Source: a virus. Taken from it: a stretch of DNA of 64,000 bases. Shown in pieces: positions 26,171 to 61,665 of the stretch. Both the position numbers and the translations under genes were made by a program. The DNA is taken from positions 1 through 64,000 of the IMG/VR virus record IMGVR_UViG_3300031962_000002, one strand, 5' to 3'. Position 1 is the first letter of the stretch. The number at the start of each line of letters is the position of its first letter. Under the pieces are notes generated by a model. That model saw only the letters and a list, made by a program, of their open reading frames with translations, had not been told where the DNA came from and did no database searches.

Positions 26171-26439
26171 TGTTTCCTGTAACTTTCAATTGCTGGTAAA
26201 AAATTTCTTGAATCTGTTATCTGGTTTGCCAATTGATGAGCAATGGCTTCTCCATTAATAATTGGATAATAGCCCCATCTTTTTTCTATTGGCCAAATTT
26301 TTTGAAAAGATGTAGGATAGTATCCAGTTAAAAACCAATTTTTTATTTCAGCAAAATCATTTCTACCTCCATCAACGCCAAAGATCGCCAGATACTTTCT
26401 GAAAAAATCTTCAATTTGTTCTTCTGATAAATAATTCAT
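26158..26439 (-). CDS. Hypothetical protein in glycan operon (93 aa)
   Basis: Small helical protein (MNYLSEEQIEDFFRKYLAIF) with aromatic-rich middle (WFLTGYYPTSFQKIWPIEKR). Starts at an ATGA overlap with the large fused enzyme gene and overlaps the next gene. No family recognised; its tight coupling suggests it helps an adjacent glycan enzyme. Confidence 0.55.
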   Translation of the reverse strand: MNYLSEEQIEDFFRKYLAIFGVDGGRNDFAEIKNWFLTGYYPTSFQKIWPIEKRWGYYPIINGEAIAHQLANQITDSRNFLPAIESYRKQCQA

Positions 26440-27863: not shown

Positions 27864-28222
27864 CAAATGATTTTTAATTCTTCACCTGTCAAAGAAAAAT
27901 ATAGATTTTGGAGTTGATGAACAAACTGACAAGGAGCCCCAGTGAATGCTGCGTCCCAAATATGTTGAATTTCTTCATCTAATGTTGGCAATTGAATTTG
28001 AAAGCATTCATTGTCTGGTCTTTGCCAAAGTCCATCTTCATCGATTCCTTCAAATCCTAATTTTGCAAGCCATTCTTCGGTGAGTGGAATTGGTTCACAA
28101 AATGAATAATGATAATTATTAATGTGATTATTTTCTATTTTATGAACTGTCTGTTCACCAGGCCTAAATACTTCGTCAGTTGTTTTTATCCAATTCCCTA
28201 TTCGTAATTCGTTTGTTTTCAT
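27863..28222 (-). CDS. Conserved Bacteroidota phage protein (119 aa)
   Basis: Begins MKTNELRIGNWI and carries EPIPLTEEWLAKLGF and HQLQNLYFSLTGEEL. I recall this as a widespread small protein of Bacteroidota phages and prophages, without a known role. The N-terminal part is beta and the C-terminal part helical. It starts at an ATGA overlap with the small gene at 28219 and precedes the fused glycan enzyme, so it is likely in the same transcript. Confidence 0.72.
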   Translation of the reverse strand: MKTNELRIGNWIKTTDEVFRPGEQTVHKIENNHINNYHYSFCEPIPLTEEWLAKLGFEGIDEDGLWQRPDNECFQIQLPTLDEEIQHIWDAAFTGAPCQFVHQLQNLYFSLTGEELKII

Positions 28223-34600: not shown

Positions 34601-34879
34601 ATACCATTCACGCCTACGATAGCGTTCACACATCGCATCCACATAGACGGTTTTCTTTTTCCCCCTCAAAACAAGATCCCGATCTTGTCCTTGCTTAAAC
34701 TCTTCTTCCAGTGATCTTTCGATATACCATTTCGGAACAGATTCACGTTTCCAGTATTGTTCTTCGATCGGTAATCCGTAATTGATAATTTGTGAAGTGT
34801 CCGTAGGTACGGGTGGAATCCAGCATTGAAAGCCCTCGCCGACTGTAATTTTTGTTCCGTTTTTTATAGGATAGAACAT
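31616..34879 (-). CDS. terL: Terminase large subunit interrupted by an in-frame intein
   Basis: The 1087-residue precursor has the DNA-packaging ATPase-nuclease as extein (~743 residues). Walker A is GPRATGKT near residue 162; Walker B is LSDLFEDE near 277-284. The intein (residues ~285-628) is inserted two codons after Walker B, between EIGK and TNPK, in a functional core; splicing must restore the ATPase. The C-terminal nuclease includes SVDYGKEK and MEIQTSSDDAG. Its ATG overlaps the giant-protein stop (TAATG), and it precedes the portal gene. Terminase identity rests on Walker motifs, architecture and position. Confidence 0.85.
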   Translation of the reverse strand: MFYPIKNGTKITVGEGFQCWIPPVPTDTSQIINYGLPIEEQYWKRESVPKWYIERSLEEEFKQGQDRDLVLRGKKKTVYVDAMCERYRRREWYRRMYGVHVMINGECIYLTNHHYFYLQWCKFDHKENNGYPFYYHFSLDNFRIRQWCEENPHSMGYMIIGPRATGKTNEELACITNRATMYHNHRAALQSKHLEDDAKGVLIQAKMVPLFNALPKFFKPEFTHGTNTQSELVFRRRSVGGKESINVEYGADYELLSTIFAAGPGEKVLDSDTLSDLFEDEIGKCLAPETKVLLHNGHIKRADEIAISDKLMGPDSTIRNIQQIKLGFDQSFKIIPKKGWDEWSCSSGHKLVLKWGNHRTLNLNGKKFKKDDTVTITIDSYLKLNKTIKKHLLLFKVPVEYEFKKTWIDPYLLGLWLGDGNKCAMHITNTDPEVLNWLLSTYKGISRLVEPVNRTQSVRIKTFHGILKLYNLKKNKHIPKDYLINDRESRLKLLAGLIDSDGHATISGNRQNCEITQKLEVLAKGIHRLSTELGFYCSIAEKNATMKRKDGTIYSCKVYRLFLFGDLSDIPTKVKRKQFPKINKHHVNRRNPLRCGFSVQKNGFSQYVGFVLDGDKQHLLGDCQVTHNTNPKTVADVYVRHEVNLKCVFRNNRKIGLLRKTSTVEEMNEGGDECLKLRKDSNMKILDGNGFTTSKIHFHLISALDTDTSLVPYIDLKGVNHGIPCDKYGNVNRNIANIKIQNDFDAVKHDLKKLSGRMRKSPRNEAEAFIKDQSKSIFNVMLLTNRLEQIRNMPRLPYVKGNLYWVKEKFGPVWWQRDDHAGRFNWAWFPDEFSKIKDPENVKILNNVGKAWGYDNKGFSRQMLFPKNDHLFRIGSDPIKYSKTKDPRASKAAIHGYRLFDMSVDYGKEKKDWESSNFIFEYINRPEDPETSFEDTAMACIFLGCKLMPERNVPSLNDYFETNGLEKFLAYPRDFVGSDMEIQTSSDDAGWSTTPEVIDYYTRRIIAFINTRIGSMPFDNTIEDWLGFDPTNPTKSDATVSSGFTLAHAEKKVEREDDAPKHKIEDWFETYDNSGVNSQFVLDTTDN
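32996..34027 (-). mobile_element. LAGLIDADG intein in the terminase ATPase
   Basis: A 344-residue protein intron. It begins with Cys (CLAPETKVLLHNG, block A), carries the homing-endonuclease motif LAGLIDSDG near precursor residue 493, and ends VTHN (block G His-Asn) before Thr as the +1 nucleophile. These are the residues needed for self-splicing by the standard Cys1/Asn/Thr+1 route. Only one clear DOD motif was picked out by eye; the partner (LGLWLGDG, ~100 residues before) is a good candidate for the first. Splicing and homing activity look intact but are unproven. Confidence 0.93.
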
Positions 34880-37800
34880 TATTCTACTGGGGTTAGTACT
34901 GGATGTGCTTTGTACTCTTTCGCATTCTTAATAATCCTTTCATAATAATTCATTGCCTCTTTCAAAGTGAATTTATCCTCCGAAGTGATCTGACGCCCGA
35001 AGTGTGTCTGAGGATGATAGTTCTCATCGTTAAGAATGTGGTATAGGTCAATCCACTCGGACACTGGCTCTCCTTTGATCGGCACTTTCTTCACGCCGGC
35101 GAAAGGATTTGAACTTCTCAACTTCTGTTTGATGTTGGCTGGATTGCCTCCTTTTTGAAGGAATTCTCCGAGCCATTTATCAGCATCATCATATTTTCCA
35201 TAACGAAGTGCCAGCATGAATTTGTATTCAGCATCCTTCTGGTCGGCTCTGGTCGGATTTCCTGTCTCGCCCTTGCTCCCGCCAACATCACCGCCTTCGT
35301 AATTGTTAATAATTTTCTTGGCCGCATAATAACTCAATTGTTCGGTGTCAAATTCTCGGAGCAAAGAGTTATGAAATTTACGGCTCAAATAAGATTCACG
35401 TTTTGGTTTGTCACTCAAGGCATAGTTATACTCGTCACCAAGTGTCATCGACTTGAATAGATACTCCCATTTGTCGTTAATCGGAGTAGGATTAGTTATG
35501 TCAGGATAATAGGATTGACCAGAACCCAATTCAAATAGAGCCTTTGGTAACGGATTCACCAACTGCACTCCTTTGTTGAGCATGTTTGTTCCTATGCCTT
35601 TTGCTGTTTTGACAGTTTCTTTCACTGGCTGACCTCCTGTAAAAATCCTCTCCAGATCATCACCGATAGACCACAGCCCAAAGAAATCAATAAAGTCGTA
35701 GAAAGCTCCCTGAATCGGAACAGTAATAATGTGACCATCCCGAACGCCTACGATCAACTGAAGCCCCTTAATTTTAGTAGCCCGTAATCTTTTTTCATCA
35801 TCCTCATCTCCACCATACAATCCAAAAGCAAACTTATTCCATGCTTGGATTGCTGCTGTGAATAATCCCATCATCACATAGGCCCGTGCCATCTTGAAAG
35901 CAACCGAAGGAATACCGCGTGATACTGCCGATTTGATAATATCGCGTTGTGCCTGCGGCGAACTTGCATTTTTAAGCAAATTCAAATGAGTTTTCATGTT
36001 CACTTCAAACCAAGAATAGAAAGGCAATAATACTCGACGCATTTGGTGCGCTCCTTGGCTAAGATTCATGTAGTCTCCAAACACATCACGGGCGAGTTTG
36101 GCATTCTTCTGCCGGACATCTGTAATTTTACGAATTTGATCTGCTGGACTTGCCCAATAGAATGCTTCTCCTTTGGCTGTTTTTTCAACTGCCAGTTTAT
36201 ATGCGGCATATCGCAGAATGTTTTCACGGAATTGTACATAAGGAGAAACAGCCTTCATGTATTTGTCCCATAAATTGCCTGGAGCATCCTTGATTTTAAT
36301 AGCCAGTTTTTTCATGCCTTCTTTTCCGAGAATGTTTTCAATGCTTGGTGAATCACTTTGTAATGCTTCAGCCCACTTCTCTTTGCTGATATCTGCAAGT
36401 TCTGAAATCTGGAACCCAGAATTGATCACATCCCCTCTCATTGCCTCCAAAAGTTGTGGTGTTGTTTCTCCGTACTTCAAGTATCTCCAAAGTTCGCCAG
36501 TGGCTTCTTTGGCATACTTGGCTATTTTTGGTTCAACTTGGATAAGCCGATCAAGATCACTACCGAAGTTATTCAAATTGTATCGAAGCATTCGAGTAGG
36601 AGAAAGAATCATCAATTGCTTCCATGCTGATGTAATCTTTGTAGCCAGTCCTGTCGGCGCACTGACTGTCTCATTTTTTGCCAATTCTTCAAGTTGTTCG
36701 GCAAGTTGAGTCGGTATCATGTACTGCTTACGTTTTGGGCCTACCATTAATCCACTTTTAAGGCCGCTGATCAATTCGTCAACAATTGCCAAGGCATCAC
36801 TCAAGCCAGCATTGTCATTGTCTTCAGCTTGGTCTATGGCCCGATCAATGGTCTTTTGACTCACTGTTTTTCCCCAGAATAACCTATTATCTTCACTCAC
36901 GCGGTAGAAAGTGAATCCTTCTGGCAGATTATCAAATAGATAATTACGTTTCAATGCACGTTTGCCGTCTATATACTGTTTGACCTCTTTGCTGTCTTCT
37001 CCGAATTGCTTTTCAATTGATGCCAATTGAGCATCGAAATGTTTCTTAAATTCAGCGGAAATAGCGTTTAATTGCTTCTCAAAAGGTGCCACAAGGTCTT
37101 TAAGGATACGCTGTTTCTCCATCTCGTACATACCTTCAGAAACCACCTTGAATTCAGTCTCAATGAAATTGGTGCTGTAATCCAATCCTCGCGTTCCTTT
37201 CCTGCGCTTCTGGAAGTCACGCTTTTTATCAGCTATATCTTTTCCGAAGAGAATGCTCTTGTGCTCGTTTTCTGCATGGTATTCCAACACCCGACGATGG
37301 TAGTAACTTTCAATGTCATTTTCATCCAATAGACCAGATTCGATCAGTTGCCTCTTGAATTCTGCCATGAATTCTTCACGCATGTCGAATGCACGTTGAA
37401 TGCGTGGATCGCCCTTCATAAAAATGTCGTACTTCGTCAGTGCCCTATCAACTTGATCGGCATCATTAAATCCGAATGGCAGTTTTCCGTCAGGGCCAAC
37501 CATGTTCAATCCCTTTTTGATGGATTCCTGCATGTCGGCCAATATAATACGCATGGAAAAAATCTTGTACTGTTGCGGAGTCATTCCTTCAACCATTGTT
37601 TTTACGTATTGGTTGGCATTGCCTTTCGCCCATGGATAGAGTGTTTCAAATTCCCGTAGGATATTTGCCTCACGGGGCCATGTCTTGGCATCAAGAAATT
37701 TGAAGTGTTGAGTTGCCCAATTTTTAACGCCTGTGATGGCTTCTCCCCACGTTTTTTCCATGTTCTCGGGAGCGGGCGCTGCGGCCTTATCTATGCGTTC

Positions 37801-40800
37801 ATCTACTTCCTGATCACCAATTTTGACTTCTTCATTCAATTGGCGCTCCAATTCTTCTCTGGTCTTGCCGGATTGCGCGATAATGGCCAATAACGCATTA
37901 TTGCTGGGTGCTTTTTTAACCTTCCCAATTGGCTTAATTGGTAGGCCGGTAGTCATCGCCCCAGAAAATCCCTCGAAGTTCTCTTCGGCGTTTTTTTTTG
38001 AATTTTCGGCAATGATGTCCTCTAATGAATTTTTAGGTTCCTCTGGCAATTTTTCTTCTGATTGCTTTTCAGATTCAGCCTTCAATTCTGCTGATAGTTT
38101 ATTGCGCTTCTCTTCTGTCTCGGCCAATTCTTTGATATCCTCTTCTTTGGCTGCCACTTCTTTAACTCCTTCGGCACTTTTGAGATTTGATAAAGCGTCT
38201 TTGTACTCCTTTTCAGATTGTGAAATGTCAATCCGAATATCGCGAATGGTGGCCTGAACAGCAATCCGCAAGGTAAGAGGATTGATTGCCTGTGTTCGCT
38301 TGATAATGGCGACTGGGGAAATGTTCTTGTTGGTCACAGTGTCGTCGCCAAGATCAACACGCGCATCTTTGTAGCCTTCGTTTTGTCTGGCATAAACATC
38401 TATTCCTCCAATTGTACCAATTTGTCTACGGTATGTGCTGTGCATGGCGTCATTCGCCCGCTCGGACAATGCTTGATAAAACTCTTGGCGTTGTTTTGGA
38501 TTGGCGGTGTCGTATTCTTGTCCATTCACTTCCCCTTTGAATTTGGCAACAACGGTAGTGACCTTTTTAACTTTGCCTTTCTCATCTTTCGATTCCTCTT
38601 CGACTTCCTCAAGTTTTATGTTTTTAACTATTCGATCGGCCAAATCATTAACAATTCTCCGTTCTTCGCGGGTATAGTCCACGAACTTTTTCGCCTCATC
38701 AATTCTGCGGGAGCGCATGATATTTGCCCGCTTCGTAGATTCAACACGGTTTCTCAACTTTTCTGCTTTTGACTTCAACTTCTCCAAGTCAAGTATGCGG
38801 GTGTCTCCACTGATAGCGGCTGCAAATTCACTCATGGTCATACTCTCTCCGTCCTCGAAGTCCATCTCACGCAATCCTTTGGCCCCAGCCCGGAAGGAAT
38901 CAATCCCTGATTGTTTGCGAGATAATAGGTCAAACCGATAGGAGTCTATGGTTTCTTGGGTGCCATAATATTTAATCGCTACTTCCTTGTATGAGTTACC
39001 CCGGCGAATACCACGGCCATTCCTTTGTTCAAGGTCTGACGGCCTCCAACCAACATCTACATGGTGCATGGCGGCAATTTTGCTTTGCACATTGACCCCT
39101 GTACCCATCTTTTGAGTGGACCCGAGCAATACACGTACTTGTCCTTTGTTGACTTTATCAAAAAGTTCTTCTTTCAGTTTTTTGGTAGGAGCATCGTGGA
39201 TGAAAGCAATCTCTTTTTCGGGAATGCCTTTTGATACAAGAAGGTTTTTCAGTGCGTCATAAACATTGAAAGAGTTTACGTTATTTGCTTCCTCGATGAT
39301 AAAATCAGCTTCTGATGGATCAACCTCCAAAATGTCGATCAATTTTTGCTTTATCGCTGACTGTTCAGTCTGTTTCCAGATTGTATCAGTGTTCGGGATT
39401 TCATTCAATACCTCTTCGCCATACATTTCAATCACCTGATCGTGGACGCGATCACCTAACTTGGCATTTTTGTTCTTAGGGGTACCCATATCGGCAAAGA
39501 CCAACTGTGTACCTTTCTTTTCGGCTTCTTCATCATAGATTTTCTTAACCTCATCGGCTACTTTAAATAGTTTCCCGCCATCGGCTTTCTGGTGAGGAAA
39601 TACCAATCTCGGGTCAATGCTGGCTTTGGTACCTAATGTGGTGAGGACAAGTCCTAACGCCTTTTCTGCATCTCCTTGTGGATTGATGCCTATTGATTTT
39701 AGCGGAGCGATGCTGGCCGACTTAGAGGCATCGTAGATGGCCTTGGTTATCATTCTCACTGTCTCTGACTGCGGAATTAGGATAATTTCTGGTTTGCCTC
39801 CTTTTATTTCTGGCTTTTCAAGTTTTAAGTTATGCTCTCCGCGCACATCTGAAATCTCTGAATACAGACTTGCCAATTCTGGCACGTTCACAAACTTAGT
39901 TAATCGAGTTTTGTTCTTGATCACGCCAGCCACATTCTTCTCCATCTGCGAGGTGATCAGCGCGAAGTTCTTTAAGAACTGATCCAGACTCACCATTTGC
40001 AGTTTCTTCAAAAGGCTTGGCCGTAGGTACTGGAAAATATTGTAAACCTCAACCAATGAGTTTGAAATCGGGGTTCCGGATGCAAAGACAATACCCTTGT
40101 CTCCGCCGTGCATGTTTTGGAGATACCTGGTAACCATTTTCAAATTCGACGCTCTCTTTGAACCTTTCGCGGTGCCCATACCGGACACATTGCGCAACTT
40201 GGTCACAAAGTTTAGGTTCTTCATCTGCTGGGATTCATCCACAAAGAGCATATCCACACCCATGGTGCCAAAGTCTGTCCGACTGGCTCCAACACCCTTA
40301 TCTTGCAATTTTTCCAGTCTGGTTTTGAGGTTGGCAACGCGCTCTTCCAATGCCTTGGCTTGTTTCACCGCCCATTTGTCGCTCTTATCTGCGTTCATTT
40401 CCGACATGGCCGACCGCAATTCTTCAATCTCTCCTTCGATATACTGCGATTCAAATTCTGCCGGCAACGGGATTGTCCCAAGATTCTCATGGGTGATTAT
40501 CACAAGATCCCAATCATTATTTGCAATCTGCGCGAACAACCTTTGACGATTTGCAGCGGAGAAGTCTTTATCTGTTGGTGCCAGTATCTTCTTTTCAGGG
40601 TATTGGGCCTTGATTTGATCCATCATGCCGGGCACCACAGATTTCATTGTAGTTATCAGTGGCTTGTTAACCAGCCCTATTTCTTTCATCTTGATGGCCC
40701 CCACGGACATAACCAGCGACTTCCCGGCTCCGACCTGGTGATCAACCATCCCGCCCATTTTCTGCACGATCATCATTATTGCGTCCTTCTGGTGAGGATT

Positions 40801-43800
40801 CAGGTCATAACCTTGCATCCCTGGGAAGGTCAGGTGATCGCCATTGAATTTCTTAATGACAATGCCATTGAAATACTCATTGTATAGTTTTGACAGTTCG
40901 TTACCTGTCTTTTCATCGGCCTCAATAAGCCCGGCAAATTCGTTCTGGAGTCTTTCAGCCTTATCACGAACATCCTGCGTGAGTTTTGGAAGTGGTGTTT
41001 TGGTACCATCTGAATGAGTGACATAAAAGTCGGGCACATTTTTAGTGATAGCGGCTTTCACGACCACATCAACGCCACGGCGATGACCGTCTGGGTCGAA
41101 GGCTTCATAGTCGCCTCCCAGAACGCGGGAATTCACTTCGTAATCATCCGTGGCTTTATTGTACCGAACCGTCACTCGTCCTTCTCCAAATACTGAATCA
41201 AGGAATTGTTGTGTATATTTTAACGGAATCCACGATGCCCCCAACTGGAAAGTGATTTGTTCTTTGGGAATAGGCATCGGAATGATCTTTTTGAGCGCCT
41301 CAACATTGCGTTCATATTTCTGATCAACCTTAACCCATTGTTCGGCCTGCTTTAGCTTCTCAATGACGTTGCCTGATAAATACTCGTTCTTTTCAACGAT
41401 CTCGTCAGGCGTCTCAAAAATCTCATCTTTTATTCTTTTGATTGTTGCCTCTTCTGATTTCTCGCCGAGTACCTTCTGAATGAAAGGCATGTTGAGTTTT
41501 CCATAGTTGTTGATGGAAAACCCTATCGCTTCCTGTGGAACTTCGGTCTTTGTAAATTCATTCAGTTCTCTCTTGATAGGTTTTTCAACAACATCTGAAA
41601 ATGTTCCATCCGATTTTTCAAGGGCTGACACCGCATAAAAATCGGGATCAGAAACCAGTATGCGATTGATCGCTTTGTTGCCTTTTGCAAGTGAGTTGAG
41701 GTTTGATGGTTTGATTATCCTGATAAAATTCTTTAGCGCAATCCGAAGGCGTGAACGCTCTTCTTTTGTGTCCTCATTGAGTTTGTCTTTTGCCAAAACA
41801 TCAAAGTAGATTTTCTTAGTATCAACAAATGCCTTCAAAATAGGCATGTCCTTCTCGGCGGGCATCACGCCTTTGCCAATCTCTTCGATTGAGTATTTGC
41901 CTGTATCCCGGTCGAAGTCGCGCACGAAGTAATATTTCCCTTCATTTTCAACAATGCCACCAGATACCATCCGGCCCAGCGGTGTGATTTGAAGAGTCTG
42001 AAGGGTGTCCTTTTCTTGCGCCTGACGTTCGAGTATGGGTGCCTTTTTGGCCATCTCGGCAAGTTTTTCGCCTACCTTGGTTGGATCAAATTCACCTACC
42101 AAAGTGTATCCTCTTTCAGCATTGTAAAGTCCACCGGCCTTGAATTCTGTGCCAAAGATGTTTTCCGGGTTCTTTTTGAAATACTCATTGTACTGGATAT
42201 CCTGATTGGGCAAAGCGGGGTTGTTGTGCTTTACATTTTGGGTTACAATGTTCGAAATCTGGTCGACGCCGGGAACTGATGGTGTAATCTTCTTCCTCAA
42301 AAGGATGATATCAGTCACCACCTGGGTACCGGCATCGGCATTGAATGCTGAAGAAGAAAGCCTAACGGCGCCTACAAAATCGGTTTCCTTGTTGATTAGG
42401 TCCCTGGTGCCTTGGTTTCCCGGCGTATCGAGGATATTTGATGTGGTCAAAATCGCCACATATCCACCCGGCCGCACCGAATCAATGGCTTTGGCAAAGA
42501 AGTAGGTATGCAGTTTATCTTGGCTCTGTTTCCACAGACCTCCGCGCTTGTCCAATTGAGGATCGTACACATGAGCTGACCCAAAAGGAATATTGGAAAC
42601 GAACAAATCATAGTAATTTGACGGAATTGAGGCGCTTTGCAGCGGGCTATTAATAATTGATGCCTTCGGATATAGGTATTTGCTGATCAAAGAGCTTACG
42701 ACATCCATGTCGACGCCTTTAACCCGGCTATTGCCGGACATCGCCGCTGGCATCCCGCCTATAAACCGACCAGTTCCTACTGAACCTTCAAGGATTTTGC
42801 CCCCTTCAAATCCTCCAGCGCCAAGCCCTTCATAGATTGCCCGAATAACAGGCAAGGAGGTGTAATAGGCATTGCGTGTTGAACTTTTGGCTGTCTCCAA
42901 TGGCTTTGTGCCAGTCTTCTCCCCAATGTCCTCCAAGAGGCTTTTGAGCTTTTGGGCATCATCAAAGAATTCGAGGTTTGATTTCGTCCAGTCTTTGCCG
43001 AGCTTGTTGTCAGAAAGCAGAATCTCGCCCAGCGGGCCTAACCCATTGTATTTGGCGAGTGCTTCCTTTTGTTCATCTGTGGCAAAACTGTCCGGATTGT
43101 CCAAAAGATTATTAATCACCTCCAACGCCGCGATGTTGTCAGTGTATGCCTGCCGCTTGGAGAATGTCTTGTTCTTAGTCCTTTCCCAGTTCTCTGGGTA
43201 GACAAAGTTGTGCTGGATCTCGGAGTCCTTTAATTCAGGCCGTAGGCGTCCCTCATTGCCTCCTGAAGGCTCTCCTGCGGGCTCATTCCCGTTTTCTCGT
43301 ACATCTCCTGGTTGTGATTCACCAGGCTGACTAACGTTTCCATTTGCTTCTTCGCCTCCAGTTCCTTTTCCTTGTTCAGTTCCTCCCTTCTCTTCTCCGG
43401 CATTGCGTTCAGCATTGACGCTACTGGTCCGTGAACCTCCTTCACCAACCACTGTTCCAGTTTTGTTAACATTTTCTTTAGGTGTTAATTTTTCAAGTTC
43501 TCTTTCGTTGACTACCTTTTCGATAGTCTCTTTCGGAATATCTTGGACGTTTTCAAATTTCTCACCAGTCCGCTTCTCCACTGAATTCAACAAGTGAGAA
43601 GGATTTTCAAATCCTTTCTTTTTGGCTATCTCGTCCGCATGAGATTTAGCCTCTTCCTTAGTCAGAAATTCCCCTTCAGGCGTGGCGACATGATAGCCGC
43701 TGCCGGGAATTATGTGCACTGGTTGAGACGAAACAATGTTGCCTTTCAGAACCGCACGGACTCCGTTCTTGTCCTCCCCTACTTTATCCCCTTCCAGGTT

Positions 43801-46410
43801 GGTCCCGAGAACTTTAAAGCCCTTGCCAAAAGACTCTTCTTGTTTGGCTTCTTCGGGTTTAGGATTAGATATTTCACTCCCTTGAGTTGACGTTTGAGTA
43901 TTTTCATTGGTTATTTTATCTTTAAAAAATTGCGCTATATTTTTGTCTGAAATTTCATAGCCTGAATCAGTTTCAGTTAGATAATTAGTTAACTCACTGC
44001 CAGCCTTAAGTCTTATACTAACCGCTCTTTTGTCTTGTATAGGTTTTCCTTCTTTGTCATAAAACTGGACTATTCTGCTGCCATCATCTGTTTTTATTTC
44101 TTGACGAATACCATTTTCAAAATCAGTCTTTGTGGCTGTAGCATTTCCTATTTTTAATTCCTGTTTATTAATTTCTTCTCCAAGATCAGGAACATCAATT
44201 GTGCTTGTTGCTATCCCGTGTTTTTCTGATTCTTTCTTCCACTTTATTTTTTCCTCGGTATTGTCTCCGAGTGGTGCTTGTTGCTTTTCTTCTTCAGTCC
44301 GATTTTCTTGGGTAGTTTCATTCCCTTGGACGCTTGGTTCCACTCGTCCACGTTCACTCCCTGGTTCTCCAACTGCTTCTTGTGCATGTTGAAGTACGCT
44401 GCTTGTGCTTGGCTCTTGTATGGCATTTTGTTCCCCCTCCTTGGTTTTATTTTTTAGTTTGTAAACAAATGCTTTTTCTCCGTTTTCTAAAATGATGGTT
44501 GAACGTTCGTATTTCTCTTCCCAATTATCAAGTTTTTTTAACTGTTCTGGCGTAACCTCCAAAACTTCCCCTCTTAAATTCTTCCCTTCATCATGTTTAA
44601 TGTCAGGGAAAGATTTAATGTCAAATTTTTCATCGTTTGGAGCAATTGCCATTTCTGTCTTCACATGTTCACCTATTGCTTCTTTTCTTGTCTTTGGATC
44701 TTTTAAAGTGCCGTAAACAAATACTTTTTGTTTCCCCGTTTCTGGATTAACTGGAACTACTTCTGATGATGGCTTAGTCTCGAGAATTTTATCTTGCCGT
44801 ACTTTTTCCTCCCGATTGCTGCCGCTACTGCTCCCGGGTTGTTCACTCCCGGTTCGTGGCTCAATTTGTTCTTCAGTTTCTGAAAGCGGCCTCCCCCGCC
44901 CAGTTTCATTGACTTGTGGATTGTTTGTGATTTCATCTTTTTGTGATTTTGATTCGTTTGTTATTTTCTCTTGGTTGTTTTTAAAATTGCCAACGATATG
45001 ACCGCCTCCAATAATACCAATGGAACCATAAAATCCCTGTAATCCTTCCTCTCTCGATCTATTCCAATCAATGTCTTTTTCCCAATCAATGTCATCAACT
45101 TTCTTTCCACTTGCTAAAAGTGCCCCTATTTGTGAATTGGTGCCTTGCATGAACTCTGTTGCATATTCAGTTAATGGTTCTGCTAAAGCCTTAACGCCTT
45201 TTTTCCACATTGCCTCTGGGGCATGTTTCAATAACTCTTCTGTGGCTTTCTTTTTGATTATATTCTTAACACCTACACTAAATGCTTTAGTAGTTGTGAA
45301 TATTGATGATCCTAGATCAAGAACTCCATTTATTAACCCTACAACGTGAGCAACTTCTTTGGCTGGCTTGTCAAGATCCTTTTCAATAACTTCTTTTTCT
45401 GTTATTCCATAATTCTTAGCTATCGCTGAAACAGCCTCATCATAGGCACCTCCTTTTTCCATAAGATAACTTGATGCCCCGAGCGTAGCTACTGAGGTAG
45501 GAATATAACCTAACCCATTACCGATGGCTCCCCCAATATAGGATGCTATTCCAGATGAACCTTGCTTGGTGGCTTCTTCCCAATCTTTTGGTATTGCCTT
45601 CAAACCAGAATAATCACCCAGAAGTTTACTGGATTCCTCCTGAATTTTTTTTGCCTCTTCTAAGTGTGATATTTTTTTATTTATTGCCGCCGCTGTAAAT
45701 GATGGCCCTACTTTAATAATCTTACCCTCTTTTGTAATGACATCCCCACCTTTGCGCCATCCAGGATATTCCTCATCTGCTATTTTTTCAGCATATTTTC
45801 TTCGCGTCTCATCACTGGCAAATTCATTTAACACTGCATATTTTTCAGGATGAGTCCGGATAAGTTCATCTATGAAATCCGTTTTCTGATTGATAGCCTC
45901 ATTTTGTTGAATGTTTGCAGGAACATCATGCTTAAGTACCGAAATAAACTTTCTTCCTAAATCAAATAGTCCTCTGAATAGATTTTCTGTCGCACCTCCT
46001 CCATATTCCTTCAATGCTATATCATGAATGTTCTCTTCTGGAGTAGGCGTTAAAGTTACTTCTGGTGTTGGTGGTTGAGGTTTTGTTGGATCAATCTGCC
46101 CGCTTAATAATTGTTCTTCTGGCGAAGGACTTGGTGGCGTGATTGCCAACTCTGAACCAGTTGATAAAGGCTTTGTAACATCCAATTGACCAGGTAACGA
46201 AAAACTGAAAGTATCGTCTTTTTTTTTTACTTTGGATTCAAAGTCTGAATATTCTCCTAATTCAAATTCTTTACCAACTCCATTGTAAAATGCCTGTCTT
46301 TTAGTTGGATCTTGCAGTTTTTTAGTGAACTCATCTAGGGAACCAATGTCATATTTTTTTGACACGGCTTCATGCAACACCTTTATTTTATCGTCAGTAG
46401 GATCAATCAT
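34879..46410 (-). CDS. Giant polyvalent protein: cyclotransferase-like, N6-adenine methyltransferase-like and SNF2-type helicase domains
   Basis: 3843 residues. Approximate layout: 1-60 repeat-like N-terminus; ~300-480 hydrophobic helices; ~560-655 gamma-glutamylcyclotransferase-like (VFVYGTLKDP); ~1205-1290 methyltransferase (EGSVGTGRF AdoMet loop, SNIPFGS as NPPF-like motif); ~1880-2480 SNF2/DarB-type helicase (QVGAGKS Walker A, FVDESQQ motif II, GTGVNVQSK and QRNGRGIRR C-lobe); then long coiled coils; ~3250-3550 a virion-type domain with a hydrophobic helix (AYVMMGLFTAAIQAW). Known relatives: polyvalent and DarB-type proteins injected with phage DNA to block restriction. Neighbours resemble ejection proteins, so injection is inferred. 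A second, unrelated virion role is possible. Confidence 0.85.
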   Translation of the reverse strand: MIDPTDDKIKVLHEAVSKKYDIGSLDEFTKKLQDPTKRQAFYNGVGKEFELGEYSDFESKVKKKDDTFSFSLPGQLDVTKPLSTGSELAITPPSPSPEEQLLSGQIDPTKPQPPTPEVTLTPTPEENIHDIALKEYGGGATENLFRGLFDLGRKFISVLKHDVPANIQQNEAINQKTDFIDELIRTHPEKYAVLNEFASDETRRKYAEKIADEEYPGWRKGGDVITKEGKIIKVGPSFTAAAINKKISHLEEAKKIQEESSKLLGDYSGLKAIPKDWEEATKQGSSGIASYIGGAIGNGLGYIPTSVATLGASSYLMEKGGAYDEAVSAIAKNYGITEKEVIEKDLDKPAKEVAHVVGLINGVLDLGSSIFTTTKAFSVGVKNIIKKKATEELLKHAPEAMWKKGVKALAEPLTEYATEFMQGTNSQIGALLASGKKVDDIDWEKDIDWNRSREEGLQGFYGSIGIIGGGHIVGNFKNNQEKITNESKSQKDEITNNPQVNETGRGRPLSETEEQIEPRTGSEQPGSSSGSNREEKVRQDKILETKPSSEVVPVNPETGKQKVFVYGTLKDPKTRKEAIGEHVKTEMAIAPNDEKFDIKSFPDIKHDEGKNLRGEVLEVTPEQLKKLDNWEEKYERSTIILENGEKAFVYKLKNKTKEGEQNAIQEPSTSSVLQHAQEAVGEPGSERGRVEPSVQGNETTQENRTEEEKQQAPLGDNTEEKIKWKKESEKHGIATSTIDVPDLGEEINKQELKIGNATATKTDFENGIRQEIKTDDGSRIVQFYDKEGKPIQDKRAVSIRLKAGSELTNYLTETDSGYEISDKNIAQFFKDKITNENTQTSTQGSEISNPKPEEAKQEESFGKGFKVLGTNLEGDKVGEDKNGVRAVLKGNIVSSQPVHIIPGSGYHVATPEGEFLTKEEAKSHADEIAKKKGFENPSHLLNSVEKRTGEKFENVQDIPKETIEKVVNERELEKLTPKENVNKTGTVVGEGGSRTSSVNAERNAGEEKGGTEQGKGTGGEEANGNVSQPGESQPGDVRENGNEPAGEPSGGNEGRLRPELKDSEIQHNFVYPENWERTKNKTFSKRQAYTDNIAALEVINNLLDNPDSFATDEQKEALAKYNGLGPLGEILLSDNKLGKDWTKSNLEFFDDAQKLKSLLEDIGEKTGTKPLETAKSSTRNAYYTSLPVIRAIYEGLGAGGFEGGKILEGSVGTGRFIGGMPAAMSGNSRVKGVDMDVVSSLISKYLYPKASIINSPLQSASIPSNYYDLFVSNIPFGSAHVYDPQLDKRGGLWKQSQDKLHTYFFAKAIDSVRPGGYVAILTTSNILDTPGNQGTRDLINKETDFVGAVRLSSSAFNADAGTQVVTDIILLRKKITPSVPGVDQISNIVTQNVKHNNPALPNQDIQYNEYFKKNPENIFGTEFKAGGLYNAERGYTLVGEFDPTKVGEKLAEMAKKAPILERQAQEKDTLQTLQITPLGRMVSGGIVENEGKYYFVRDFDRDTGKYSIEEIGKGVMPAEKDMPILKAFVDTKKIYFDVLAKDKLNEDTKEERSRLRIALKNFIRIIKPSNLNSLAKGNKAINRILVSDPDFYAVSALEKSDGTFSDVVEKPIKRELNEFTKTEVPQEAIGFSINNYGKLNMPFIQKVLGEKSEEATIKRIKDEIFETPDEIVEKNEYLSGNVIEKLKQAEQWVKVDQKYERNVEALKKIIPMPIPKEQITFQLGASWIPLKYTQQFLDSVFGEGRVTVRYNKATDDYEVNSRVLGGDYEAFDPDGHRRGVDVVVKAAITKNVPDFYVTHSDGTKTPLPKLTQDVRDKAERLQNEFAGLIEADEKTGNELSKLYNEYFNGIVIKKFNGDHLTFPGMQGYDLNPHQKDAIMMIVQKMGGMVDHQVGAGKSLVMSVGAIKMKEIGLVNKPLITTMKSVVPGMMDQIKAQYPEKKILAPTDKDFSAANRQRLFAQIANNDWDLVIITHENLGTIPLPAEFESQYIEGEIEELRSAMSEMNADKSDKWAVKQAKALEERVANLKTRLEKLQDKGVGASRTDFGTMGVDMLFVDESQQMKNLNFVTKLRNVSGMGTAKGSKRASNLKMVTRYLQNMHGGDKGIVFASGTPISNSLVEVYNIFQYLRPSLLKKLQMVSLDQFLKNFALITSQMEKNVAGVIKNKTRLTKFVNVPELASLYSEISDVRGEHNLKLEKPEIKGGKPEIILIPQSETVRMITKAIYDASKSASIAPLKSIGINPQGDAEKALGLVLTTLGTKASIDPRLVFPHQKADGGKLFKVADEVKKIYDEEAEKKGTQLVFADMGTPKNKNAKLGDRVHDQVIEMYGEEVLNEIPNTDTIWKQTEQSAIKQKLIDILEVDPSEADFIIEEANNVNSFNVYDALKNLLVSKGIPEKEIAFIHDAPTKKLKEELFDKVNKGQVRVLLGSTQKMGTGVNVQSKIAAMHHVDVGWRPSDLEQRNGRGIRRGNSYKEVAIKYYGTQETIDSYRFDLLSRKQSGIDSFRAGAKGLREMDFEDGESMTMSEFAAAISGDTRILDLEKLKSKAEKLRNRVESTKRANIMRSRRIDEAKKFVDYTREERRIVNDLADRIVKNIKLEEVEEESKDEKGKVKKVTTVVAKFKGEVNGQEYDTANPKQRQEFYQALSERANDAMHSTYRRQIGTIGGIDVYARQNEGYKDARVDLGDDTVTNKNISPVAIIKRTQAINPLTLRIAVQATIRDIRIDISQSEKEYKDALSNLKSAEGVKEVAAKEEDIKELAETEEKRNKLSAELKAESEKQSEEKLPEEPKNSLEDIIAENSKKNAEENFEGFSGAMTTGLPIKPIGKVKKAPSNNALLAIIAQSGKTREELERQLNEEVKIGDQEVDERIDKAAAPAPENMEKTWGEAITGVKNWATQHFKFLDAKTWPREANILREFETLYPWAKGNANQYVKTMVEGMTPQQYKIFSMRIILADMQESIKKGLNMVGPDGKLPFGFNDADQVDRALTKYDIFMKGDPRIQRAFDMREEFMAEFKRQLIESGLLDENDIESYYHRRVLEYHAENEHKSILFGKDIADKKRDFQKRRKGTRGLDYSTNFIETEFKVVSEGMYEMEKQRILKDLVAPFEKQLNAISAEFKKHFDAQLASIEKQFGEDSKEVKQYIDGKRALKRNYLFDNLPEGFTFYRVSEDNRLFWGKTVSQKTIDRAIDQAEDNDNAGLSDALAIVDELISGLKSGLMVGPKRKQYMIPTQLAEQLEELAKNETVSAPTGLATKITSAWKQLMILSPTRMLRYNLNNFGSDLDRLIQVEPKIAKYAKEATGELWRYLKYGETTPQLLEAMRGDVINSGFQISELADISKEKWAEALQSDSPSIENILGKEGMKKLAIKIKDAPGNLWDKYMKAVSPYVQFRENILRYAAYKLAVEKTAKGEAFYWASPADQIRKITDVRQKNAKLARDVFGDYMNLSQGAHQMRRVLLPFYSWFEVNMKTHLNLLKNASSPQAQRDIIKSAVSRGIPSVAFKMARAYVMMGLFTAAIQAWNKFAFGLYGGDEDDEKRLRATKIKGLQLIVGVRDGHIITVPIQGAFYDFIDFFGLWSIGDDLERIFTGGQPVKETVKTAKGIGTNMLNKGVQLVNPLPKALFELGSGQSYYPDITNPTPINDKWEYLFKSMTLGDEYNYALSDKPKRESYLSRKFHNSLLREFDTEQLSYYAAKKIINNYEGGDVGGSKGETGNPTRADQKDAEYKFMLALRYGKYDDADKWLGEFLQKGGNPANIKQKLRSSNPFAGVKKVPIKGEPVSEWIDLYHILNDENYHPQTHFGRQITSEDKFTLKEAMNYYERIIKNAKEYKAHPVLTPVE

Positions 46411-56352: not shown

Positions 56353-56667
56353 ATGATTAAAGCGCCTGAGGATAGAATTATCCTCAAACCAATTCCGCCT
56401 GAAACCGTCCTGAAATCTGGCCTTTTTATCCCTTTGGAGGCCCAAAAGGTCATATGGTGGGAAGTTGTCGCTATCGGCCCGCACGTTGCCAACCGGATAA
56501 AGATTGTCGGCGATAAAGTCACTGTCTTCCAAGATCCAGAAATAAAACTTGAACCCGGCATGTTGGTATTGATCGGAGAATCAGTAGGTATCGAGTTTGA
56601 AGATAAGGGAGAAAAATTCAAGGTGATACGGCACTCGTCTGTGGAACTTTACGATGACAAAAAATGA
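56353..56667 (+). CDS. GroES-like (Cpn10) co-chaperonin
   Basis: A 104-residue protein with the Cpn10 outline: DRIILKPIPPETVLKSGLFI at the start, a mobile-loop region, KVIWWEVVAIGPHV, GDKVTVF, and the final strand KFKVIRHSSVELYDD (parallel to the GroES C-terminus). Phage co-chaperonins (T4 gp31-type) redirect host GroEL to fold capsid protein. The gene is in a short plus-strand group apart from the virion genes. No phage GroEL is seen in the window. Confidence 0.75.
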   Translation: MIKAPEDRIILKPIPPETVLKSGLFIPLEAQKVIWWEVVAIGPHVANRIKIVGDKVTVFQDPEIKLEPGMLVLIGESVGIEFEDKGEKFKVIRHSSVELYDDKK

Positions 56668-58469: not shown

Positions 58470-59986
58470 CAAAATGGCTGTTCAAATTGGTCTTGATCCT
58501 TTAACTGTTCAGTCGGGTCTTTCATACGAGTCACTCCATTAATCTGCCTTTGTGTGTTCCAAGTATGCTCCGCAGCCCAAGGAACAAATTTTGTAATCTT
58601 CCCTATGAACTTCAGTTTTGCTGTTTCCAAGGCTCCTGCTCTGTGCTTTGCCACAATAACTTCCGCAAGTCCACTGGTAGAATTTCCATCCACATCTTCG
58701 GTGATTTTGTAATACTCTGGACGGTATAGGAACAGAACCAAATCGGCATCGCTCTCCAAACTGCCCGATTCTCGCAAGTCGGAAAGCTGTGGCCGTTTGT
58801 CACCTCCGCGTGTCTCCAACCCCCTGTTCAAAGAAGAAATCAGGATAACACAAATGCCGTTTTCCTTAGCAATTGCCTTACATCCACGCGACACGTTTCC
58901 TATTTCCTGGTCTCGGGATATTGATTGACCGTGGACAGTCCCGCGAACGAGCTGGGCATAGTCAATCAGCAATATCCTGATTTTATGCTTTTGAACCATT
59001 CTTTTAGCCCTAGCCCGTATATCGGTGATGTGTAAAGCTGCTGAATCATCGATATACATTTCGCACTGTCCTACCTTGCCATAACCATCAGCCATCCGCT
59101 CGAATTCGTACTGGGTAAGTGCATCCTTGCCTTGCCTAACCTTGTCAGAGTCAATTTCGGCCTCTGCGCACGCTAGGCGTTCGATGACAGCCACGGACGG
59201 CATTTCAAGGGAGAAAGCCCCAGTCGGTATTCCGAGTTCCTTAGAGGCAAAATAAAGCGATTGAAAGGCCAATGTAGTCTTTGCCATGCCAGGGCGTCCG
59301 CCTAAAACTACCAAATGTCCTGCATGCCATCCAAAAATAATACGATCCAGTGTTTCGTGACCTGTTGATGTGCCAGAAGTCTGCCCGGCCATGCGGTTTT
59401 GAAGTCCTACATAGGCCTCGTAGGCTATTTCTTTCGCTGATTTCTTGTTTTTGGTGTCCGATAGGCTTTCTGTGATGCTTTCAATCCGCTCGTACGCATA
59501 ATCTTTCAATTCAAAGGCGTCTGTGGTATCGTCATAAGCCCTGGCGTGCAGTTCAGAGGCTATCATGATTAATTCCCGCTTCATAGCATGCTGGATGATA
59601 ATCCTCGCATGCCATTCGATATTTGCCGATGAACTTACCTTTGAAGTCAATTCAGCGATATAGTAGGCACCTCCAATCAACTCAATCTTTCCTTTTTTTC
59701 GGAGCCGGGCTATCACGGTGCGCATGTCAATCGCCTCCCCTTCGGTGAATAATTCAAAAATTGCCTCAAAAATCTCTTTATGAGCATCAACATAAAAGTG
59801 ATCTGGCCGGAGTATCCCTCCCACTACTGTCATCGCGTTTGACTCAAGCATCAAACCGCCAAGTATGGCCTGTTCAGTCGGAACATCCTGCGGTGGCATT
59901 TTTCCAATACTTTCGGAAATGTCTCTTGCTAGTGGCCTATTTGGAATCCCCTGACCTAATCGAACTGGCGTTGATCGTTGCTCCAT
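58469..59986 (-). CDS. dnaB: Replicative DNA helicase, DnaB-type
   Basis: A 505-residue helicase. The N-terminal dimerisation domain begins PQDVPTEQAILGGLMLES. The RecA-like C-terminal domain has Walker A GGRPGMAKTT near residue 229, Walker B ILLIDYAQL near 337 and DLRESGSLESDADLVLFLYR near 410-430, all standard DnaB signatures. It unwinds the phage replication fork 5'-3'. Encoded in the same direction as replication-linked genes, coupled by TAATG upstream and TGATG downstream. No DNA polymerase or primase gene was recognised in the window. Confidence 0.93.
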   Translation of the reverse strand: MEQRSTPVRLGQGIPNRPLARDISESIGKMPPQDVPTEQAILGGLMLESNAMTVVGGILRPDHFYVDAHKEIFEAIFELFTEGEAIDMRTVIARLRKKGKIELIGGAYYIAELTSKVSSSANIEWHARIIIQHAMKRELIMIASELHARAYDDTTDAFELKDYAYERIESITESLSDTKNKKSAKEIAYEAYVGLQNRMAGQTSGTSTGHETLDRIIFGWHAGHLVVLGGRPGMAKTTLAFQSLYFASKELGIPTGAFSLEMPSVAVIERLACAEAEIDSDKVRQGKDALTQYEFERMADGYGKVGQCEMYIDDSAALHITDIRARAKRMVQKHKIRILLIDYAQLVRGTVHGQSISRDQEIGNVSRGCKAIAKENGICVILISSLNRGLETRGGDKRPQLSDLRESGSLESDADLVLFLYRPEYYKITEDVDGNSTSGLAEVIVAKHRAGALETAKLKFIGKITKFVPWAAEHTWNTQRQINGVTRMKDPTEQLKDQDQFEQPF

Positions 59987-60264
59987 TATCTAACCATAAA
60001 CTTTGTTTCTAACCATCCTTGAAATTCTCCTGCAAAAAATGACGGACAAACCATTTGGTCACTATGGCTATCAATTGAACATCCGCACATTGCGCACGGT
60101 TCTTGTGTGGAGTGAATTTCTATAAAACATTTTTTTAATTGGTCTTGATCTATCCCTGTTCCATCACAAAATGAGCAAGTTGATGGACAATCCATTCCGT
60201 CAACGTTTATTTCCTTTTCTCCGTGACCATTACAGAATTCGCATTTTAAATCTTCGTATTTCAT
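59986..60264 (-). CDS. DnaJ-like zinc-finger protein (92 aa)
   Basis: Two repeats of the C-x2-C-x-G-x-G pattern (CEFCNGHG and CSFCDGTG) match the zinc centre of DnaJ-type cysteine-rich domains. Extra Cys (CAMCGC) lie in the C-terminal half. Without a J domain it is probably a metal-binding adaptor in replication. Overlaps the helicase start (TAATG) and follows the upstream gene by ATGA. Confidence 0.65.
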   Translation of the reverse strand: MKYEDLKCEFCNGHGEKEINVDGMDCPSTCSFCDGTGIDQDQLKKCFIEIHSTQEPCAMCGCSIDSHSDQMVCPSFFAGEFQGWLETKFMVR

Positions 60265-61094
60265 TTCGGTATCTGGTAAAACATTTTTTCATCTTTTTTT
60301 CCTTTGTTCAATGGACTTGATTCCCATGAGGCCAACCTTTTTGCTAAATCCCAGAATTCTTCCAACTCCCACCGGATGCGTTGTGGTTCTGGTTTGTTTT
60401 CTGGCATCGACCAATGACGGTAGAAAGAGTTCATCACATCGCTTGTGTATTTGCCCCTAAATGGTTCCATTGCTGCGGTCAGGGCTTGTTGCTTCTGTTT
60501 CACGGTCTTTTCGATGTCGGTCAAGTAACAGGCAATTTTGTCGAAATTATTTCGAGCCCAAGTAGCAAGGCGAAGTGATATTTCAAATGTTTTTTCCTTT
60601 TCGAACTTCATTTTTGGTACTTTGGAACGGGATGTTTCAGTCCATTTCGCTACGAAGTTATCCAACATTTTCTTTGTGTATATCAATTCTCCAGCATGGT
60701 AAACTTCTTTTTTGAACGACTCTTTTTTAATTTTTAATTCAGAGTAGATACTTTCATTTTCATTTTCCATATGTGGTGACATATGTTCCTGTTGACTCCT
60801 ATTATTCTTTCTTGAAGAACAATAATCAATACGCTTAGTTTTTTCAAAGTCCAATCTTTCATTAAAAAAAAGACCTTGTTCGTCTTTTTGAAACTTCTTT
60901 TGGAGGGTAGGCCAGCTTGAGCCAAAATCCGATCCAAGACAAGTTTTTATTTCTTCTAATGAAAGGTGACCATTATTAAACTGAGCGTGAAGCAAGTCCA
61001 TGTAGCACCCCTTTATGAATCGGGTCATAAGACTGGTGCCAGAATACCAATCTCCAAAATACCAAAGAAGGGCCGGATCTTTAGCGATAGGCAC
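60261..61094 (-). CDS. DUF1376-like replication protein (277 aa), GTG start
   Basis: The N-terminus (PALLWYFGDWYSGTSLMTRF, then GCYMDLLHAQFNNGHLS) resembles DUF1376 proteins placed near phage replication initiators. The rest is charged and helical. A GTG start at 61094, preceded by AGGGAG, is preferred; this overlaps the upstream gene by 14 bases. Likely contributes to origin binding or helicase loading before the DnaB gene. Origin repeats were not recognised. Confidence 0.62.
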   Translation of the reverse strand: MPIAKDPALLWYFGDWYSGTSLMTRFIKGCYMDLLHAQFNNGHLSLEEIKTCLGSDFGSSWPTLQKKFQKDEQGLFFNERLDFEKTKRIDYCSSRKNNRSQQEHMSPHMENENESIYSELKIKKESFKKEVYHAGELIYTKKMLDNFVAKWTETSRSKVPKMKFEKEKTFEISLRLATWARNNFDKIACYLTDIEKTVKQKQQALTAAMEPFRGKYTSDVMNSFYRHWSMPENKPEPQRIRWELEEFWDLAKRLASWESSPLNKGKKDEKMFYQIPK

Positions 61095-61521
61095 CTCCCT
61101 TCACTATACATTCTTCGTTGAAAATAAAGACACCATGATCAGTTAATTGATGAAATTTTGAATGGCAATTTGGACATATTTTTATAACTTGAGTGCCATT
61201 ATTTTTCTTACGAATGGGATAATGATGATCATGCATCAAAATATTTGATAATCCGCAAAACTGACATCCTACTAAGTAATTTTGATTGAGCAAATCAAAT
61301 GCTTCTTTGTCGGTAATTACCTTTCTCTTAATCAATTTTAATGAAGAAATCTTTTTTAATTTCCTGTATATAGAATCTTTTTTTAAATCAAGTAGAGGAA
61401 GTGCCGTCACTAAGTTATCATAAGAATATAAAATTTTATTTAATCGGAACCATGTTATTATGGCCGCATCATCATAATTAATGAGACCACCAAACTTGTT
61501 TAAATCATCATCAATGGCCAT
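61081..61521 (-). CDS. Winged-helix and HNH-motif protein (146 aa)
   Basis: Residues ~20-70 look like a winged helix (DSIYRKLKKISSLKLIKRKV). Residues ~86-125 form a zinc-HNH pattern: C86-x2-C89, DHH at 98-100, C116-x2-CH at 119-120 and H124. This combines a DNA-binding domain with a small nuclease-type motif. It is the first gene behind the promoter/attenuator at 61523-61665 and leads the replication operon, so a replication or regulatory nuclease is more likely than a selfish element. Enzyme activity unproven. Confidence 0.65.
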   Translation of the reverse strand: MAIDDDLNKFGGLINYDDAAIITWFRLNKILYSYDNLVTALPLLDLKKDSIYRKLKKISSLKLIKRKVITDKEAFDLLNQNYLVGCQFCGLSNILMHDHHYPIRKKNNGTQVIKICPNCHSKFHQLTDHGVFIFNEECIVKGGAYR

Positions 61522-61522
61522 A

Positions 61523-61630
61523 AAAAATAAAGCCTTTGATCGGGTTCAGGTGTGCAGCCATCCCCCTATCAAAGGCGTTTAAAGTTCTTTTTCACCGCTT
61601 CTGCACACAGCGATTGCCGATCCTTTCGGC
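61523..61630 (-). ncRNA. Candidate structured ncRNA or transcriptional attenuator
   Basis: Minus-strand transcript of ~108 bases from the promoter at 61635 to a T run (TTTATTTTTT) before the ATG at 61521. Helix 1: GCCGA/TCGGC. Helix 2: CGCT/AGCG with loop GTGTGCAG. Helix 3: GCCTTTGAT/ATCAAAGGC, a 9-bp terminator stem, whose loop holds CTGCACAC. The loops of helices 2 and 3 are perfectly complementary over 8 bases, predicting a kissing or pseudoknot contact. The terminator would block the replication operon unless refolding occurs. No known RNA family was recognised by eye. Confidence 0.6.
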
Positions 61631-61634
61631 GCAA

Positions 61635-61665
61635 CAAATTTAACAATCAATGACACTTTCACAAA
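61635..61665 (-). promoter_or_regulatory. Consensus Bacteroidota promoter for ncRNA/replication operon
   Basis: Minus strand: TTTG (61662-61665), 19 bases, TAAATTTG (61635-61642): perfect matches to both boxes. Expected start near 61628-61630, directly at the first helix of the RNA. Confidence 0.82.

Follow-up and report, generated by a model that had tools for sequence, protein, structure and literature searches.

The DNA analysed here (the window, 64,000 nucleotides) is part of a 75,540-base virus record in which an integrase is present, and on its minus strand a replication operon begins immediately behind what looks like an intrinsic terminator. What might an RNA do that appears to end just before the first codon of such an operon, and do other phages make RNAs of the same kind? 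A first-pass annotation had described a promoter-driven RNA with complementary loops at this place, and had offered an attenuator, a riboswitch-like switch or an independent small RNA as its possible nature.

The leader of the window and its operon

The features of the leader and of the genes behind it are the following.

61662–61665, minus strand: −33 promoter element TTTG, exact to the Bacteroidota consensus TTTG-N19-TANNTTTG
61635–61642, minus strand: −7 promoter element TAAATTTG, an exact consensus match; the RNA is predicted to start about 4–8 nt downstream of it
61616–61630, minus strand: extra 5′ hairpin GCCGA..UCGGC from the fold (helix 1 of the first-pass annotation)
61592–61613, minus strand: hairpin H1 from the fold (its helix 2), presenting loop L1
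61601–61608, minus strand: kissing loop L1, GUGUGCAG
61577–61591, minus strand: A-rich linker with GAACUUU, where subfamily A has AACUUAUU
61532–61576, minus strand: intrinsic terminator hairpin from the fold, with a 9-bp outer stem
61568–61576 and 61532–61540, minus strand: terminator stem arms GCCUUUGAU and AUCAAAGGC, then UUUAUUUUUU
61550–61557, minus strand: kissing loop L2, CUGCACAC, inside the terminator loop
61523–61531, minus strand: terminator U-run
61081–61521, minus strand: first operon gene, an ORF of 146 aa, HNH-like (Cys/His pattern judged by eye)
60261–61094, minus strand: rep-like protein, 277 aa, with a MAKDPA-type N-terminus (phrog_19415, unknown function, 7e-17)
59986–60264, minus strand: operon ORF of 92 aa
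58469–59986, minus strand: DnaB replicative helicase, 505 aa (Pfam DnaB_C, 2e-77)

The promoter TTTG-N19-TAAATTTG (61665–61635, minus strand) has zero mismatches, just as the first-pass annotation had it. It is one of two perfect TTTG-N19-TANNTTTG matches in the 64 kb window; with one mismatch allowed there are 20 sites against 13 expected, and the pattern alone is not significant. The predicted RNA of about 108 nt has a folding energy of −36.6 kcal/mol (z = −2.7), and none of 200 shuffled sequences folded as well. Its fold consists of three helices and reproduces the arrangement described earlier, including the 9-bp terminator stem with its T run (61532–61576 and 61523–61531). The complementarity claimed for the loops of helices 2 and 3 is also exact, the 8 nt of L1 (61601–61608) pairing perfectly with L2 (61550–61557) and mismatches standing at both borders. 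When both hairpin-loop regions of the window were shuffled, a match of 8 or more arose between them in 0.4% of trials; judged by this chance figure of its own, the loop match is interesting, not decisive.

The earlier annotation recognised no known family and suggested a search of Rfam. That search gave nothing at the gathering threshold for the window leader (at E ≤ 10 there is sub-threshold noise, mostly snoRNA), and among the leaders scanned, related ones included, none matched the covariance model of any Rfam family, c4 (RF01695) among them.

The U-run ends one base before the AUG (61521) of the 146-aa ORF, with no gap in the series of stem, U-run and AUG. This ORF has no Pfam match and no PHROG match. 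To the earlier account of a replication operon we can add that the first downstream gene is this small HNH-like ORF, followed by the 277-aa rep-like ORF, which resembles ORFs of L047, L037 and L067, and by DnaB. Elsewhere, window positions 34879–46410 are occupied by one minus-strand ORF of 3843 aa, 56353–56667 by a small GroES/Cpn10-like gene that lies on the plus strand and so faces the other way from the replication operon, and 26436–27866 by an ORF that matches a PHROG β-1,4-glycosyltransferase (6e-38) annotated under moron/host takeover.

Related leaders in other phages

No homologue of the window RNA was found in phage records, in IMG/VR through single-protein queries, or by blastn in the DnaB-neighbourhood loci, and the collections searched contain nothing closely related to the leader or to the proteins encoded next to it. 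The search for relatives by layout used 80 replication neighbourhoods taken from IMG/VR by means of a DnaB alignment, and its target was architecture only, namely a hairpin and a following terminator with mutually complementary loops. The layout of the class is a TAnnTTTG box, a hairpin, a linker, a terminator with complementary loop, and an AUG. With scanners tuned on the window, and with shuffle controls that kept two-base blocks and not exact dinucleotide counts, a strict scan gave 6 matches (the window and two in contig L048 among them) against 0 in the shuffles, a looser scan with the TAnnTTTG box gave 22 against 3–5, and a fold-based scan for loop matches of at least 7 nt gave 44 distinct matches against 4. 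Chance matches within coding sequence (for example L016, L021, L034 and L207) are not counted as members. At L187:2560–2690 a leader-like candidate is called on each of the two strands, and the kissing letters, GGAGTAAC, are identical.

In the related leaders, too, H1 lies between promoter and terminator, and a TAnnTTTG-like box lies upstream (the scans demanded such a box). The helix 1 hairpin of the window is absent from the other leaders listed and is not general to the class. Numerous contigs of Bacteroidota phages and six cultivated phages share the class layout, in most cases ahead of replication genes, and orthologues of one rep gene have leaders in place with differing loop letters. 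Patterns for two groups of leaders, A and B, each have at least 120 matches in viral contigs; the group A pattern also has 23 matches in bacterial and archaeal genomes, 0 of which had the leader layout on inspection. On architecture and synteny, the window leader probably belongs to this class as well. It has no sequence homologue, and compensatory change was assessed on groups A and B (below). A keyword search of the open-access literature, in which such a report could have been missed, found no description of a leader of this kind. These RNAs are an apparently undescribed class of phage leader RNA outside Rfam, and most likely they work as RNA-only attenuators.

Position before replication genes

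An ATG lies no more than 45 nt from the start of the U-run in 74 of the 82 scanned candidates, some of which are chance matches in coding sequence, and the distance is mostly 6–20 nt. Among the matches listed, a rep-like or dnaB match is present within 4 kb downstream at 79 of 108 group A loci and 82 of 108 group B loci, and several of the remaining first ORFs resemble, by eye, other replication or HNH proteins. An HNH-like gene (again by eye) occupies the same place behind related leaders as in the window, and relatives such as L156 and L169 repeat the window's arrangement of promoter, leader, HNH-like gene and rep gene. Leaders of the group A and group B types precede varied first genes (rep-like, HNH-like, or an ORF of MAKRFTDTEKW type), as if the leader had moved between loci as a cassette. 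More than one leader can be present in a contig: L048:1401–4211 has three within 3 kb, each with its own loop pair, and one of these leaders directly precedes a helicase-like gene, another a rep-like gene; L014 has two whose loops differ.

In cultivated phages the class layout is seen in Flavobacterium phage 11b (33620–33719, loop CGGGCAGG), in Polaribacter phage P12002L (34477–34388, loop GGTCGTAG), where it precedes a gene annotated as primosomal protein, and in Flavobacterium phage elemoA (loop TGAGAGC), where the genes downstream are a hypothetical one and those for a replication protein and a primase/helicase. Polaribacter phages Danklef_1 and Freya_1 carry a leader with loop GGTGGAA, which in Freya_1 precedes genes annotated as replication genes, and Croceibacter phage P2559S has one with loop GTGCAG and six pairs. 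Scans of Flavobacterium phage 1/32, Nonlabens phage P12024S and Bacteroides phage B124-14 gave no credible leader, nor was there one in the parts examined of Cellulophaga phi39:1 and Bacteroides phage BI-TP1. The feature tables of 11b and P12002L list no integrase; since the window phage has one, the element is not confined to integrase phages.

Conservation of the loop-loop pairing

Group A was picked outside the loops, by its linker AACTTATTGSCY and the terminator end, and all 48 unique leaders (48/48, among the matches listed) have complementary loops of at least 6 nt, with 16 different matched strings. Group B was picked mainly by its linker TTTAGTGGTTAARTRATA. Among the matches listed it comprises 55 unique segments, two of them chance linker matches, and the other 53 leaders were aligned from their sequences alone; because the anchors leave out the loops, loop pairing is not built into this alignment. 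Across these 53 leaders, pairing in the 8-pair kissing helix amounts to 98.0%. Both sides are changed in 101 cells and one side alone in 1 cell; the terminator stem accepts G-U pairs. Covariation in the kissing helix is 0.690 versus 0.180 ± 0.022 in shuffled alignments (reached in 0 of 500), and it is at most 0.127 when the partner is slid by 1–3 columns. Complementarity is thus kept by compensatory changes in related leaders, as the first-pass annotation had expected if the loop contact is real. Two group B leaders (L206:158–245 and L255:580–667) each have one internal mismatched kissing pair, and these are possible natural intermediates between loop alleles.

In L041 (1047–1190) a third copy of the L1 letters, CAGTCACA, follows the terminator and precedes the rep AUG; in read-through transcripts this copy could offer L2 an alternative partner beside the start codon.

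Diversity of the loops

The loops are hypervariable. Among the distinct group B leaders in the matches listed, differences per site are 0.365 in the loops, 0.119–0.130 in the stems and 0.012 in the linker, and simple compensatory drift does not predict a variability in paired loop sites three times that of the stems. L1 differs in 19 of the 25 group B pairs (among the matches listed; the pairs share sequences and are not independent) whose downstream 350 bp are at least 99% identical. For example, L247 and L308 share 99.1% identity downstream and 94.5% upstream, and they carry AGTCCAGC and CTACGAAC, respectively, each with its matched L2. Group A behaves likewise, with loops differing at up to 99.7% identity (L385, L419). 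Part of this diversity could come from drift combined with the exchange of whole leaders, or from the mixing of strains during metagenome assembly.

Several other possibilities were considered and set aside. Loop-specific recognition by the adjacent protein is unlikely, given several cases in which the downstream 350 bp are 99% identical and as many as 5 of the 8 loop positions are changed. For a leader peptide, L139 reads AUG AAC UUA UUG GCU CGA AGC UGA, and its near relatives, by eye, have no AUG. As to a separate target or antisense gene within the phage, neither the 8-mer of the window nor its complement has a further site on either strand of the whole 75.5 kb record, an absence of little weight in that a shuffled 8-mer is expected 1.6 times; the loop 8-mers of 11b and P12002L, with the same reservation, have no other site in 11b and in 48 kb of P12002L. 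As far as these absences go, the only evident partner is the leader itself, that of the same phage or of a kin phage.

Proposed mechanism and alternatives

We think it probable that the leader RNA is a transcription attenuator for the replication operon of the phage. Host RNA polymerase would start at the Bacteroidota-type promoter and make the 5′ hairpin H1 with loop L1 exposed, and would next make the intrinsic terminator, whose loop L2 is complementary to L1. The two loops are predicted to form a kissing helix of 7–8 bp while both stems stay intact. L2 would emerge with the polymerase near the termination point, and pairing could in this way determine what share of the polymerases terminates ahead of the first start codon. 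Neither stem has to open for the contact, which makes it likelier that kissing goes with termination, and a kissed, terminated leader (low expression by default) is the most likely working state; read-through would follow where kissing is prevented or displaced. The leader RNA of the same or a kin genome might compete for L1 or L2, which would tie read-through to leader concentration. With leaders competing for each other's loops, more leader RNA would mean less read-through, and the result would be copy-number feedback and the exclusion of kin phages with the same letters.

An attenuator fits best among the three forms offered by the first-pass annotation because the terminator directly precedes the start codon, and its broader claim of a replication-operon regulator of no known family is well supported. 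Its riboswitch-like option is disfavoured in the sense of a ligand-binding riboswitch, which we regard as very improbable indeed: purine riboswitches have a kissing contact in a 5′ leader with a terminator, and the present leaders share this arrangement, but besides the layout no conserved core is seen (by eye) across the subfamilies, and Rfam gives no match. The independent small RNA may still be compatible with the data in that a terminated leader is itself a small RNA. That it is made chiefly to act through its loops on host or other phage genes, its position in the operon being secondary, seems quite improbable; it would have its own promoter and terminator, but in most cases the AUG follows directly on the U-run, the loop letters are not conserved, and the 8-mer is without another site in the phage genome. 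We also consider it improbable that the hairpins load or modify polymerase for read-through, in processive antitermination of the HK022 put or λ nut kind. A site close to an early promoter, its several copies in some phages (L048, L014) and the AU-rich linker would suit such a role, but the element ends in an intrinsic terminator of its own, and its unconserved loop letters are ill suited to recognition by a conserved factor.

Within attenuation, the loops may act on the same RNA or between RNAs. The kissing is compatible with the terminator and could merely stabilise it without regulation. A function in cis only, with the loop-loop helix stabilising or speeding the terminator and the letters drifting by compensatory change, is possible though short of probable. 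It agrees with a kissing helix bounded at 7–8 bp between intact stems and with short bridging nucleotides that suit a closed kissing complex, but such drift is not expected to yield threefold loop over stem variability or different alleles in nearly identical phages. The hypervariable, internally matched loop pairs suggest that leaders compete for each other's loops, and this allele-like diversity would suggest RNA–RNA recognition in trans, for copy-number feedback or kin immunity. In this stronger form of the attenuator explanation, which we hold tentatively, a terminated leader from one phage genome would use its loops to pair with a leader still being transcribed from another. The outcome would be a dosage-dependent shut-off of replication genes or immunity against kin phages, and the loop letters would set specificity as in plasmid incompatibility or P4 immunity. 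The excess of differences in group B loops over stems and linker, the 19 of 25 near-identical pairs with different L1 and the similar group A pairs (among the matches listed), the differing leaders within one contig (three in L048, two in L014) and the lack of another 8-mer site in the record, in 11b and in 48 kb of P12002L all speak for it. Against it, intramolecular kissing should be favoured, whole-cassette exchange with drift or strain mixing in metagenomes could give part of the pattern, the compared pairs are not independent, and the 8-mer absence is weak evidence with 1.6 sites expected. That the leader is an RNA-only self-recognition locus, its loop letters being alleles under balancing or diversifying selection and its terminated form shutting off replication genes in co-infecting phages that carry the same allele (as superinfection immunity or to control copy number), is a bolder idea that we regard as rather unlikely.

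Attenuation, the reading that we prefer, would make these leaders an apparently undescribed class of regulatory RNA in the phages that infect a major bacterial phylum. They lie ahead of the genes that initiate DNA replication in the phage, and the presence of the class in cultivated phages makes it testable there. If the loop alleles do act in trans, they would be an RNA analogue of immunity and incompatibility specificity, also in phages with no annotated integrase, and their loop pairs would provide a ready set of orthogonal RNA switches for use in Bacteroidota.

Comparison with known systems

The HK022 put RNA and λ nut are promoter-proximal hairpins in early phage transcripts and have several copies per phage. 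Promoter-proximal hairpins are common to these and to the class leader, which has in addition its own terminator and a kissing partner; we know of no leader-internal terminator or kissing partner in put or nut. The c4 antisense RNA of P1-like phages (RF01695) acts through short complementary segments and in that respect is a similar phage RNA, and the leaders scanned give no Rfam match. GOLLD and ROOL are natural large bacterial RNAs that form homo-oligomers, and the paper that describes this mentions kissing loops (PMC12286853); as large oligomer-forming RNAs they are unrelated to the class leader in size and position.

In satellite phage P4, RNA pairing (CI RNA, seqA/seqC) controls whether transcription ends prematurely, before it reaches the replication genes of the phage itself (PMC4825925). 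The likeness lies in complementary partners within a leader before replication genes. The CI RNA is a processed RNA between two targets, whereas the class leader itself carries both partners, in the loops of two hairpins of which the second is an intrinsic terminator, and P4 RNA acts in trans, whereas trans action of the class leader is putative. In plasmid pIP501 the antisense RNAIII directs attenuation in the repR leader, and more copies give more RNA and more attenuation (PMC4981023). Here, too, a rep gene lies behind a leader terminator and the RNAs make loop-loop contacts, but the pIP501 antisense RNA is separate and comes from the opposite strand, whereas the class leader has both partners on one RNA. 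By analogy, P4 CI RNA and pIP501 RNAIII would be the nearest working parallels to the class leader, neither of them with both partners in the loops of one short leader.
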